From assembly GCA_027024145.1 (NCBI GenBank), contig JALVTF010000003.1, positions 1 to 60,086 of the forward strand: DNA of 60,086 nucleotides. Direction: 5' to 3'. The notes beneath the pieces are model-generated. The model did no database searches. It was not told the origin of the DNA and saw nothing but the letters and a program-made list of their open reading frames with translations. How positions within the stretch are numbered: position 1 is the stretch's first letter; every line of letters begins with the position of its first letter. Below, in pieces: positions 17,523 through 23,134 of this stretch. Source of the stretch: Campylobacterales bacterium. GTDB lineage: Bacteria; Campylobacterota; Campylobacteria; Campylobacterales; Nitratiruptoraceae. The translations under genes were made by a program, and so were the position numbers.

Positions 17523-17549
17523 TTGCAAAATCATCAAGAGAGGGAAAAT

Positions 17550-18149
17550 TTGGGAACGAAAGAGAATATCGAGTACATAAAAAATGAGCTCAGCGGCGAT
17601 GAGAAGCTGCTGGGTGAGCTCATCAAAACAGAGCGTTTTTTCAAAAAGTATAAAAAGCCTATCATGGGAGCGCTCACCGTTTTGGTTATAGGTCTGGTAG
17701 GGTACGGGGTCTATGACTGGAAACGGTCGATGGATTTGCAAAAAGCCAATGCAGTCTATCTGAAATTGCTGCAAACCCCCAATAAAGCTTTGGAACAAGA
17801 GCTTGCCGAAAAAGATAGGCATCTGTATGAGCTCTACCTCTACCAAAAAGCCGTGCGTCAAAAAGATGCGAAGCTTTTGGAGGATTTGACAAAAAGCCAA
17901 GACCCCCTCATCGCGGATCTGGCGCGCTACCATCTATCGGCACTCGCTCGCGATCCACAAAAGCTGCGTTCTGTGATCCTGGCACACAATATGATGCAAG
18001 ATCTGGCCATCGTGGATGAGGCCTATTTGTTGGATACGAAAGGGCAGAGCGAGAAAGCGCGCAAGGAGCTTGCGAAGATACAAAAAAACTCTCCCGTGTA
18101 TGAGGTGGCGAAACTTCTAAGACACTACGGAATGAAGGTGACGCAATGA
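17550..18149 (+). CDS. YfgM-like membrane-anchored protein
   Basis: This is a 199-residue inner-membrane protein with a charged cytoplasmic N-terminus, one transmembrane helix (about residues 31-53) and a periplasmic alpha-helical domain that looks like degenerate TPR repeats. Architecture matches YfgM, an ancillary subunit of the Sec translocon that links it to periplasmic chaperones. Sequence identity to that family cannot be judged here. The TTG at 17550 is chosen because GAGAGGGA precedes it and the likely transcription start lies between it and an earlier in-frame TTG. ATGA overlap couples it to the following lipoprotein, which resembles BamB, mirroring the yfgM-bamB order of gammaproteobacteria. 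Confidence 0.65.
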   Translation: MGTKENIEYIKNELSGDEKLLGELIKTERFFKKYKKPIMGALTVLVIGLVGYGVYDWKRSMDLQKANAVYLKLLQTPNKALEQELAEKDRHLYELYLYQKAVRQKDAKLLEDLTKSQDPLIADLARYHLSALARDPQKLRSVILAHNMMQDLAIVDEAYLLDTKGQSEKARKELAKIQKNSPVYEVAKLLRHYGMKVTQ

Positions 18150-19147
18150 AAAAATATATAGCACTTTTTTTTATGACGCTTCTTTTTTTGGGGTGTAGCA
18201 GCAGACACTATTTCGAACCGCAAGAGGTAGCGGGTGCGGTGGATTTCGACGGTTCTTTGCCGGCACCCATCGTAGATGTCTTGCGTGACGGTGCCACACT
18301 AGCCAACGGACAGTTCATCTCCCAAGACGGTTTGGAAAACTATAGATTTCCCAAAGGCTTTCTCTTTTTGCACAAAAGCGGCGGCTACTATATCGGTGCT
18401 TCCAAATGCGGTGAAGTGCAAGTGGTGGATGTGGATACCAAAAAGGTGGTGTATGACAAAAAATTTGCTATGAAATCGCCCATCGCCGCATCTGCAAAAG
18501 GGAATCTCCTCGCACTCGTCTTCGATGACGACTCTTTGGCCATCTATAATATGGACAACGACTATCTCATCTACTCTTCCAAACAAAAACCGGGCATAGC
18601 CAACGACACCAAAATCGCCAATCCCTTTTTCCTCGATCGTCTCGTGATCTTCCCCACCCTCGACGGCAAGCTCGTGGTGGTCGATCCCGTTACCGCCAAG
18701 GAGGTGCGTACCATCATCATCGGAACGCACAAACATTTCAACAATGTCATCTATCTGGGCGTCATCGACGAAAAACTCATAGCCGCCACGCCTAATCGTA
18801 TCATCTCTGTCTCTCCCGCGGTATCCAACTCTCTCGATCTGGATCTAAGCGACGTGATCTATGTGAAAGGACGTGTCTATCTTCTGACAAAAGATGGTCA
18901 GATCATCCTCACCGATCCGGCTCTCAACGTGCTCAAGCGTCGCAAATACGCCTTTGCGCACTTTACAGGTGCGATTTACGGCGAGTATATCTATCTCATC
19001 GAGCAGGGCGGCTACATCATCGCAACGGATAAAGATCTGCGTGTGACCAATATTTTCGAGTTCCCAAGCGAGATAGACGACTATATCTTCACTTCCAAAG
19101 ACAAAGTCTTCTACGACGATAAGTATTTCAAACTCAATAAACTATGA
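18146..19147 (+). CDS. BamB-like beta-propeller lipoprotein
   Basis: The protein has 333 residues. The N-terminus is a lipoprotein signal (LLFLGC, lipidated Cys17; phenylalanine at -3 is not ideal but tolerated). The rest consists of repeated beta-strand blades of the type seen in PQQ/WD-like propellers (for example YIGASKCGEVQVVDVDTKKVV, NLLALVFDDDSLAIYN, GKLVVVDPVTAKEV). This fold and its position after a YfgM-like gene suggest a BamB-type outer membrane assembly or envelope scaffold lipoprotein. Direct family assignment is not certain. It overlaps its neighbours by 4 bases on both sides (ATGA). Confidence 0.65.
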   Translation: MKKYIALFFMTLLFLGCSSRHYFEPQEVAGAVDFDGSLPAPIVDVLRDGATLANGQFISQDGLENYRFPKGFLFLHKSGGYYIGASKCGEVQVVDVDTKKVVYDKKFAMKSPIAASAKGNLLALVFDDDSLAIYNMDNDYLIYSSKQKPGIANDTKIANPFFLDRLVIFPTLDGKLVVVDPVTAKEVRTIIIGTHKHFNNVIYLGVIDEKLIAATPNRIISVSPAVSNSLDLDLSDVIYVKGRVYLLTKDGQIILTDPALNVLKRRKYAFAHFTGAIYGEYIYLIEQGGYIIATDKDLRVTNIFEFPSEIDDYIFTSKDKVFYDDKYFKLNKL

Positions 19148-20023: not shown

Positions 20024-20625
20024 CAATCGCTCTGCCCAAAGGGCGCATCGGAGACGATGCCCTGGGGATATTCGAAAAAATCTTTTCCAAGCCGTTCGCA
20101 TTCGAAGAGCGCAAGCTCATTTTGCAGATGGAAGGGTTTCGCTTCTTGCGTGTGCGCAGTCAAGACGTCCCTACCTATGTCTATCACCAGGCTGCAGACC
20201 TTGGTGTAGTGGGTCTCGATGTTTTGGAAGAGAAGGGGCTCGATCTGGTGCGCCTTTTGGATTTGGGGTTTGGCAGATGTAGTGTCAGTATCGGTATCAA
20301 AGCCGACGAAGAGCTGCGCTTTGACAAACCCAGCTACAAAGTGGCCACGAAGATGGAAAACATCACGCGCCGCTTTTTTAGCCAGAAGGCTATCCCCGTG
20401 GAGATCATCAAGCTCTACGGCTCCATAGAGCTTGCACCGCTTGTGGGACTGGCCGATATGATCGTCGATATCGTCGAGACGGGTGAAACCATGAAGCAAA
20501 ACGGCCTCAAACCGGCCCTGGATATCATGGAGAGCTCTGCCTATCTCATAGCAAATACCAATAGCTTCTATGCCAAAAAAGAGGAGATTTTGCGCCTGCG
20601 CCAAAGAATCCAAGAGGTGCTTTGA
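20017..20625 (+). CDS. hisG: ATP phosphoribosyltransferase, short form
   Basis: It condenses ATP with PRPP in the first step of histidine synthesis. At 202 residues it is the short HisG(S) form lacking the C-terminal regulatory domain. Such enzymes usually need HisZ, which is not in this window. Motifs: the N-terminal LPKGRI segment, DLGVVGLDVLEE, and the PRPP-binding loop LADMIVDIVETGETM (about 147-161). The ATG at 20017 follows AAGGAAGGG. It overlaps coaX by 7 bases and shares one base with the next start codon (TGATG). Confidence 0.94.
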   Translation: MLTIALPKGRIGDDALGIFEKIFSKPFAFEERKLILQMEGFRFLRVRSQDVPTYVYHQAADLGVVGLDVLEEKGLDLVRLLDLGFGRCSVSIGIKADEELRFDKPSYKVATKMENITRRFFSQKAIPVEIIKLYGSIELAPLVGLADMIVDIVETGETMKQNGLKPALDIMESSAYLIANTNSFYAKKEEILRLRQRIQEVL

Positions 20626-21305
20626 TGGGGCTCGATCTCTATGCGAAAGTCGAGCCTCTTTTGGGGTTCGAAGAGCAAAAAAACGAGCTCTATGAGATAT
20701 TTTTGCATAAACTCGCAAGTCTTGGCATCAAGCGATTCTTGGATATCGGCGCCGGCAGTGGCACATTCATGCAGCGCGCTTTAAAGCGGGGATTTCGTCC
20801 CAAAGGCATCGACATCAGCTGCGAGATGGTACGGCGCGCACGCCAACAGGGACTCGATGTGGCGTGCAAAGATATATGCGATGTGGATGATCGTTTCGAG
20901 GCGGCCGTGGCGGTATTCGATGTGATCAATTATCTCTCTTTTCCGGAGTTGCAGCGCTTTTTTGCCTGTGTGCGCAATGTTTTGGACGATGGCGGCTACT
21001 TTTTGTGCGATATCAATACCCTCTATGGTTTTAGCGAAATCGCACAAGGCACTCTCGTAGTCGATAACGACAGGGAGTGTGTCGCGATCGATGCGAATTT
21101 TGCCGATAATAGATTACAAACGGATATAATATATTTTTATAATGAATCTGGATGCTACAAAAAAGAAAAAGATAGTATAATCCAGTATTACCACGATATA
21201 ACGGATTTGAAACGCTTGGGGCTCGAACTCGTGGATATCGATTTGGTTGCGCTCTTTGGCGACGAAGCAGACAAAGCACTTCTTACATGGCAAAAAGGAA
21301 AGTAA
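20625..21305 (+). CDS. Class I SAM-dependent methyltransferase
   Basis: This is a 226-residue methyltransferase with motif I (FLDIGAGSGTFMQRAL, about residues 39-54), motif II (GIDISCEMV) and a motif IV region (AVAVFDVINYL). The C-terminal half (about 130-226) resembles the small-molecule or protein methyltransferases of the UbiG/Trm9-like type. The substrate cannot be told from sequence. TGATG and TAATG overlaps tie it to hisG and to the PilZ/HDOD gene, so it is translated as part of that chain. Confidence 0.85.
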   Translation: MGLDLYAKVEPLLGFEEQKNELYEIFLHKLASLGIKRFLDIGAGSGTFMQRALKRGFRPKGIDISCEMVRRARQQGLDVACKDICDVDDRFEAAVAVFDVINYLSFPELQRFFACVRNVLDDGGYFLCDINTLYGFSEIAQGTLVVDNDRECVAIDANFADNRLQTDIIYFYNESGCYKKEKDSIIQYYHDITDLKRLGLELVDIDLVALFGDEADKALLTWQKGK

Positions 21306-23134
21306 TGGCGCTCTTTGGATTCGGTAAGAAAAAAGAGACGAAGCAAACCCCTGAAAAGGCGCAATCTTCTACCAAACTCAATAGACGCCGCTGGATACGA
21401 TACAAAGCCGAAGGACTTCAGAGCAGCCTCGGCGAAGTGGTGGATATCGCAAAAAGAAGTCTCAGTGTGGCCCTGGACAAAAATCTCGAAGTGGGTGAGA
21501 GTGTCAGTGTGGAGTTGGAGGGCACGACCTATGAGGCAGAGGTTGTGGCGCTCTATAAAAACAGAGCCGCCCTCGTAGTGCAAAGCGACATTCGTGCCGA
21601 TGTGGTGGCAAAAGCTTTGAAGCGATTGCCCGCGTGCGAGATAGCGCCGCGCAAAAGATTCGATTTCGCAACGATCGAGAGTGACGAGACCGTTCGCATC
21701 AATAAAGCGATCGTCAATCTCATGCTCGAGATAGAAGACCCCAATACCACGATCGACAAGCTCGAGAAGAATATTCTGGCTGTGCCCAAACTCGAAGAGA
21801 CGATACTCAAACGTGCCAACTCTATCGAAAAGGCGCGCGCCGCTCGCATAAAAACGGTGCACGAGGCCATCACGCGGCTCGGTTTCGATGAGATCAAACT
21901 CATGATATATGATTACATCAACTACGATCTCAATCTCAGCAACAACGATTTGAAACACTTCAAGAATTTCGACCTCTACAACCTTTTGATCAATGCGCTT
22001 TTTAAGCATTTCGCGCCGCTCTTTGGTTTCAATGATGTTAAAGGCGAGGGGCAGTCGCTCATGGGCATGAGCTATATCGGCGCTATGTATCTGGCGCAGC
22101 AAAGCGCAAAACTCCAAGAGCGCTACAAAGATGTGGACACGCTTTTTGATTACGAGATGCGTCTATTAGAACGTCTCGAGCTTGGTGAAGATATTTTTAC
22201 ACTATCGAGACACTACTTTTTGGATGTACTGGATGTTTTTCGCTATCTTTTCGATGGGTACGTCCTTGCATACATGGCGCATCAGCCACACTATAAGCCG
22301 AGATTTCCTATGACTCTCAGCGAACGAAAGCTCAAATTTTCCTATATTGCCTATCTTACAATCCTTGCCATGCGCTACATCCTCGGCAATGACAAACATA
22401 GCGGATATGTACTTTTTAATAGATTGAAACGATTCGGACTGGATCTTGTGGAGGCGAAAAATTTTCTCAATCGCATCATCGACGAAGTCAATGCGCGTCT
22501 GCGTGATATCGATGCGAAAAATCACCTGCGCCACTGTCAAACGCCGACGATTCTCTATTCACTCGAGAACTATCTGGGAAGCGGCATCTACTATGATTAC
22601 ATACGACGCGTCTTCGACGATGTGGAAAAAGGCCACTCCAGGGTGGCGATATGCTACGGCGACGAAGCCTATACGCATCTTGTGTTGGAAAAGATCCTCA
22701 ATTACGACGAATATCGCTTCAATAAGCTCCCCTTCGCCGTGGTGGATTGCAGCGTGATAGCGGACGATGATATGCCTCTGAGCCAATTGAGCAGTTTCGA
22801 TCTCGTCGTCTTTAAAAATATCCATGAACTTCCCGCCTCGCTCATGCAAGATTTCGTAAAAATCTATAAAGATTTCGAAGGGACGCTGATCGCTACATTC
22901 GATCAAAGTGCCATGCTCGATTTTACAAACGAAAAGCTCTACGATCTCATTCGTGATGATATAGTGCAGATGCCAAGCTACGAAGAGAGTGCCCTCTATT
23001 ACATGAAGATGGTGCACAATGCACTTGCACATCTTAAAGATTTTGCCGGTGTGGAAGTCTGTGATATCGCGGATTTTAAAGAGAAGACGAAACGTTACGA
23101 CTGCATAGAAACGGAGTGTATCGAGAAGTTGTAA
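21305..23134 (+). CDS. PilZ-like/HDOD protein with degenerate AAA+ domain
   Basis: The protein has 609 residues. Residues 20-105 resemble a PilZ domain: RRWIR fits the RxxxR arm, but the second motif is DIAKRS where D/N-x-S-x-x-G is expected, so cyclic di-GMP binding is doubtful. Residues about 125-330 match an HDOD-type helical domain. Residues about 440-590 follow the order of sigma-54 activator AAA+ domains: FAVVDCSVI (477; compare FVAVNCAAI), IHELP (506; compare GELP) and TLIATFDQS (527; compare IIATTN), with Walker A and Walker B acidic residues absent. It is probably a signalling scaffold, not an ATPase. The ATG at 21305 shares a base with the preceding stop; an ATG at 21287 is also possible. 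Its stop lies inside a hairpin. Confidence 0.7.
   Translation: MALFGFGKKKETKQTPEKAQSSTKLNRRRWIRYKAEGLQSSLGEVVDIAKRSLSVALDKNLEVGESVSVELEGTTYEAEVVALYKNRAALVVQSDIRADVVAKALKRLPACEIAPRKRFDFATIESDETVRINKAIVNLMLEIEDPNTTIDKLEKNILAVPKLEETILKRANSIEKARAARIKTVHEAITRLGFDEIKLMIYDYINYDLNLSNNDLKHFKNFDLYNLLINALFKHFAPLFGFNDVKGEGQSLMGMSYIGAMYLAQQSAKLQERYKDVDTLFDYEMRLLERLELGEDIFTLSRHYFLDVLDVFRYLFDGYVLAYMAHQPHYKPRFPMTLSERKLKFSYIAYLTILAMRYILGNDKHSGYVLFNRLKRFGLDLVEAKNFLNRIIDEVNARLRDIDAKNHLRHCQTPTILYSLENYLGSGIYYDYIRRVFDDVEKGHSRVAICYGDEAYTHLVLEKILNYDEYRFNKLPFAVVDCSVIADDDMPLSQLSSFDLVVFKNIHELPASLMQDFVKIYKDFEGTLIATFDQSAMLDFTNEKLYDLIRDDIVQMPSYEESALYYMKMVHNALAHLKDFAGVEVCDIADFKEKTKRYDCIETECIEKL

Follow-up and report, generated by a model that had tools for sequence, protein, structure and literature searches.

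We describe a protein family, found only in Nitratiruptor and its relatives, in which a PilZ-like N-terminus and an HDOD domain precede a C-terminal domain with the predicted fold of an AAA+ ATPase but without its nucleotide site. The anatomy of an HDOD domain joined to a pseudo-AAA+ domain is very probable, and the best explanation of the whole, to which we assign a probability of roughly 0.45, is a nucleotide-independent scaffold that relays the c-di-GMP state of the cell to motility or surface attachment. Each of the modules is known and the novelty lies in their combination, for which we found no descriptive paper in the open-access literature; the author of the preliminary description of this DNA likewise knew of no system so arranged. 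The conservation of an activator-type AAA+ domain without a nucleotide site, in cells that are themselves without sigma-54, is unusual.

Results

The gene and its operon

In the window, by which we mean the whole stretch of 60,086 nucleotides of DNA that was analysed, the list of open reading frames and their translations gives a 609-codon open frame encoding a protein of 609 residues (Table 1). Seventeen further homologues could be aligned with this protein from end to end at 35-70% identity, which marks it as the product of a real, constrained gene; a search of NCBIfam returned no match for it. The start of the gene overlaps the stop of the methyltransferase gene upstream (TAATG), and in those relatives where the spacing is measurable it ranges from -1 to +5 nucleotides, with an AAAAGGA-like ribosome site recurring at this position. 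Co-translation with a methyltransferase, noted from the first, is real and conserved but uninformative on the role of the protein, and a function tied to the methyltransferase was rejected, since the methyltransferase stays in the one family genome that is without the gene (G007, discussed below). Family-wide, the gene keeps its location within a housekeeping operon, and flagellar genes are not nearby.

Throughout the family, two conserved genes of unknown family, encoding a protein of 208 residues and a probable lipoprotein of 333 residues (17523-19147; no NCBIfam match), are located upstream of coaX and hisG. The G011 assembly, in which contamination is 6%, carries two very similar yet distinct copies of the PilZ-HDOD-pseudo-AAA+ gene (contigs C131 and C83; L002 and L022), which probably represent two strains rather than paralogues.

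Table 1. Positions of the gene, its upstream neighbour and the features of the encoded protein in the window.
Feature	Residues	Position	Strand	Basis
PilZ-HDOD-pseudo-AAA+ gene	1-609	21305..23134	+	Open reading frame, translation; 17 further full-length homologues, 35-70% identity
Class I SAM-dependent methyltransferase, upstream, translationally coupled (context)		20622..21305	+	Pfam Methyltransf_25, E 1.1e-11; coupling conserved
Conserved M(G/A)LFGFGKKK end, predicted disordered	1-10	21305..21334	+	pLDDT about 32; homologue alignment
PilZ-like barrel	25-104	21377..21616	+	Modelled with six strands and one helix; Pfam; motif table
RxxxR arm	R28/R32	21386-21400	+	Motif table
Degraded second PilZ motif, D47-I-A-K-R-S52	47-52	21443-21460	+	Motif table
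HDOD domain	128-327 (approximate)	21686..22285	+	PF08668 at 133-204; fold matches
Helical linker of three helices, HDOD to AAA+-like domain	340-401	22322..22507	+	Model; pLDDT >90 in most blocks
Pseudo-AAA+ domain, most like sigma-54 activator ATPases	424-609	22574..23131	+	AlphaFold2; Foldseek
First strand into first helix by a two-residue turn, no Walker A loop; R446 and D453 invariant	446-455	22640..22669	+	Model; motif table
Walker B strand LVVFKNIHELPA	500-511	22802..22837	+	Conserved across 18 homologues

The N-terminal half: a probable tether, a PilZ-like barrel and an HDOD domain

The extreme N-terminus is disordered in the model and nearly invariant in the homologue alignment, where M1, F4 and G7 do not vary and L3, G5, F6 and K8 are each conserved in at least 90% of sequences. 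This near-invariance in spite of disorder suggests a possible, and indeed probable, tether to the membrane or to a partner. In the PilZ-like barrel that follows, both arginines of the RxxxR arm are invariant in all 18 homologues, while the second motif varies by position: D47 is kept in 17 of the 18, S49 in 13 (alanine in the window copy) and glycine at position 52 in 7 (serine in the window copy), and the complete (D/N)xSxxG motif, of the type DISKxGAAI, is found in sister genera. With E values of up to 10 allowed, the Pfam PilZ profile (PF07238) matched 7 of the 18 N-termini, at best with E 1.9e-4, and the window copy was not among them. Of the PilZ-like domain proposed in the preliminary description, the RxxxR arm and the altered second motif therefore stand, whereas a Pfam match for the window copy was not obtained. 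The PilZ assignment is weaker for the window copy than for its relatives, and, because its second motif is degraded (A49, S52), the binding of c-di-GMP by this particular copy appears doubtful.

The HDOD domain, which had been expected between residues 125 and 330, is matched within that range by PF08668 (E 2.5e-9; 37.4 bits against a curated cut-off of 22.9), and the same profile matched all 18 homologues. Foldseek likewise returned HDOD folds for this region at a probability of 0.99-1.00, namely MmoQ (3p3q), SadB (9qzk), Cj0248 (1vqr) and 3i7a. In the helical linker beyond it, residues R341, K342, S366, G367, R373 and G378 are invariant in the homologue alignment.

The C-terminal domain: a predicted AAA+ fold with a lost active site

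Modelled by AlphaFold2 without templates, the whole protein reached a pLDDT of 87.3 and a pTM of 0.86, and residues 424-609 alone reached 85.5 and 0.81, respectively. When this segment was compared by Foldseek with solved structures, VpsR, FleQ and FlrC came out on top, followed closely by NtrX (E 3e-6 to 2e-5, TMq 0.66-0.70, probability 1.00); Hda and RuvB were also among the top matches, with TM values of about 0.5-0.61. The AAA+ fold that had been suggested for the C-terminal segment is thus supported by two models and by structural comparison, the predicted fold being nearest to sigma-54 activators, and the order of activator motifs is present as well, with FAVVDCSVI at residue 477, HELP at 507 and LIATF at 528.

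Profile comparisons gave no corresponding signal. Pfam produced no match on the C-termini of the 18 homologues, the sigma-54 activator family (PF00158) included; hmmsearch of the Protein Data Bank with the C-terminal domain gave no significant signal; and hhalign found nothing significant when seven activators and 23 other proteins of E. coli were compared with this domain, the activators scoring no better than unrelated proteins, NorW and NorV among them. The profile alignment to the E. coli activators does have the register that would be expected, pairing PFAVVDC with PFIALNM and FKNIHELP with LDEIGDMP, an agreement that is not significant in itself. Given that the AAA+ profiles are not significant, the case against a chance resemblance of motifs rests on fold rather than on sequence statistics. 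The domain may be derived from the AAA+ domain of a sigma-54 activator, to which it bears at the least a close resemblance; as no significant sequence profile accompanies such descent, convergence or an origin in another AAA+ branch is possible.

The nucleotide site has been lost throughout the family. In the model the first strand (E446-451) is joined to the first helix (H454-466) by a turn of only two residues, so that the Walker A loop is absent and not merely mutated, and no Walker A pattern occurs in any of the 18 homologues. Across the same 18 sequences the Walker B aspartate is replaced by K504 (arginine in one homologue) and the glutamate by asparagine or aspartate at position 505, so that the lack of both a Walker A motif and a Walker B acidic pair, first reported for the window copy, extends to every homologue. 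The strand PFAVVDC and the Walker B strand are separated by about 16 residues only, which leaves no room for the GAFTGA loop that contacts sigma-54, and this loop is absent in all 18. Nor is there, in any of the 18, a C-terminal DNA-binding helix-turn-helix: the protein ends within helices past the AAA+ core, where Pfam found no match. Loss of the site in 18 of 18 homologues indicates that the dead site is an ancestral and maintained trait. The domain is probably a pseudo-ATPase that can work only as a protein-binding scaffold, and the earlier reading of it as a binding scaffold is a fair inference from the family-conserved loss of the ATPase site.

Distribution and sigma-54 background

A survey of the phylum for the same architecture, which had been recommended as a check, found it restricted to one family. 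The full protein was searched for in 60 related genomes: 21 of the 22 from the window's own family (Nitratiruptor and relatives) have it, and none of the 38 others does. Of 298 genomes surveyed phylum-wide, nine encode the C-terminal domain, and each of the nine belongs to the family (0 of 289 elsewhere). Two peptide patterns, searched in the genomes of 84,980 species at one genome per species, matched only in the Nitratiruptor-type family, and outside the family a profile of the HDOD region recovered nothing but ordinary HDOD proteins, about 260-300 residues long.

The family is equally distinctive in its regulatory background. Sigma-54 (RpoN) was found in none of the 22 family genomes, which cover three genera, whereas in a sample of 120 genomes from the order 89 have it; the sigma-54 activator domain, at a threshold of E 1e-20, was likewise found in none of the 22. 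Nitratiruptor has been described as having lost its native flagellar and chemosensory genes and gained an Aquificota set, and as being without RpoN, FlgR and FlgS (PMC9321776). The absence of sigma-54 and of its activators across 22 genomes and three genera, with flagella present, widens this published statement. Some sampled lineages of the order in which RpoN is missing (part of families f6 and f9) are also without the protein, which is therefore not a general stand-in for the sigma-54 system.

Loss of the gene in a single genome

FlhA, rod proteins and chemoreceptors are each encoded in 21 of the 22 family genomes, and GGDEF proteins are found in all of them at 6-33 copies, with the exception of G007, which has one weak GGDEF match and is alone in the family in lacking FlhA, the rod proteins, the chemoreceptors and the gene described here. 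At the syntenic site in G007 (L093, 4612-4617) the methyltransferase gene and rpsR lie about five bases apart, so the gene is truly gone and not merely unassembled; methyltransferase, hisG and pilT are retained. The loss is derived, since G007 is nested within its genus as the sister of two genomes that keep the gene (G009 and G004; support 0.99). The G007 assembly is only 85% complete; because GGDEF and chemoreceptor genes lie on several contigs in other genomes, their joint absence is hard to attribute to one missing contig. The loss of the gene together with motility and GGDEF genes is a single event, with a coincidence chance of about 1 in 22 if the losses were independent, and is suggestive, not proof, of a link to motility and c-di-GMP.

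Discussion

In the mechanism that we favor, the PilZ-like and HDOD domains would act as input modules that receive a c-di-GMP signal, presumably by binding c-di-GMP; the face of the pseudo-AAA+ domain would bind a partner without need of a nucleotide, the conserved LFGFGKKK end would tether the protein, and the output would be motility or surface attachment. The assignment of the output to c-di-GMP and motility is tentative, at somewhat less than even odds. A precedent is SadB of Pseudomonas: this HDOD protein is a c-di-GMP binder that acts upstream of the activator FleQ in controlling flagella synthesis (PMC6543031). The weak points of the relay to motility are the degraded PilZ motif of the window copy and the placement of the gene in a housekeeping operon, and both would suit a general signalling scaffold that serves in growth, envelope or stress control and is not specifically linked to c-di-GMP or motility. 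On that account the absence of the gene from G007 would reflect genome streamlining, in keeping with the loss of several regulatory systems together in that genome; the invariance of the PilZ arginines in all 18 homologues, the retention of the full motif in sister genera, and the clean removal of the gene from G007 while its operon neighbours stayed argue against it, and we consider it rather unlikely. Some PilZ proteins regulate type IV pili, and a divergent pilT gene lies a few kilobases away, family-wide where assembled, so that control of pili in place of flagella might be considered. It is not our first choice, and we regard it as quite improbable: pilT is kept in place in G007 in spite of the loss of the gene, its linkage is one that many housekeeping genes have in common, and it belongs to a separate block on the opposite strand.

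The nature of the C-terminal domain admits alternatives of its own. The presence of Hda and RuvB among the top structural matches, and the lack of a significant preference in profile comparison, would be compatible with an origin in another branch of AAA+ proteins (Hda/DnaA, RuvB or clamp-loader like) and an incidental resemblance to sigma-54 activators, but the higher TM values of the activators and the expected register of the local profile alignment to their family make such an origin improbable. That the protein hydrolyses ATP, or functions as a sigma-54 activator, has the AAA+ fold alone in its favor and is very improbable, as the Walker A loop, the Walker B acids and the GAFTGA loop are missing and the family is without sigma-54. 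A more specific history for the relay to motility, in which the ATPase of a sigma-54 activator turned into a dead scaffold after the lineage had lost sigma-54, and was then put to new use, with inputs from PilZ and HDOD modules, as a relay of c-di-GMP controlling horizontally acquired flagella, is a low-probability proposal when taken as a whole.

Conserved across the family except in its sole member without motility genes, and combining an input of the c-di-GMP type with a dead activator domain, the protein is a candidate regulator of the Aquificota-derived flagella. It also illustrates clearly how an activator-type AAA+ domain can stay under constraint without a nucleotide site and without sigma-54, which would allow this fold to be examined as a scaffold independently of ATP hydrolysis.

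Comparison with known systems

The protein has the HDOD fold in common with SadB, MmoQ and Cj0248. SadB, however, begins with a YbaK-like domain and lacks an AAA+-like one, whereas the protein described here has a pseudo-AAA+ C-terminus and an N-terminus that is PilZ-like, with no match to a YbaK-like domain. With PilZ-domain c-di-GMP receptors such as FlgZ it shares the RxxxR arm, and in sister genera the DxSxxG motif too, but the barrel is fused to HDOD and pseudo-AAA+ domains and the second motif of the window copy is degraded. TyrR of E. coli, representing activators that do not work with sigma-54, resembles the C-terminal domain in having an activator-type AAA+ domain without GAFTGA; TyrR retains the Walker A and B motifs, of which our domain has neither. 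The closest structural relatives are the bacterial enhancer-binding proteins VpsR, FleQ and FlrC, the first two of which regulate biofilm or flagella in connection with c-di-GMP. These have the same AAA+ core fold and the same order of elements, and differ in that the protein described here lacks the nucleotide site, the GAFTGA loop, the receiver domain and the DNA-binding tail, belongs to a genome without sigma-54, and carries PilZ-like and HDOD modules in front of the shared core.
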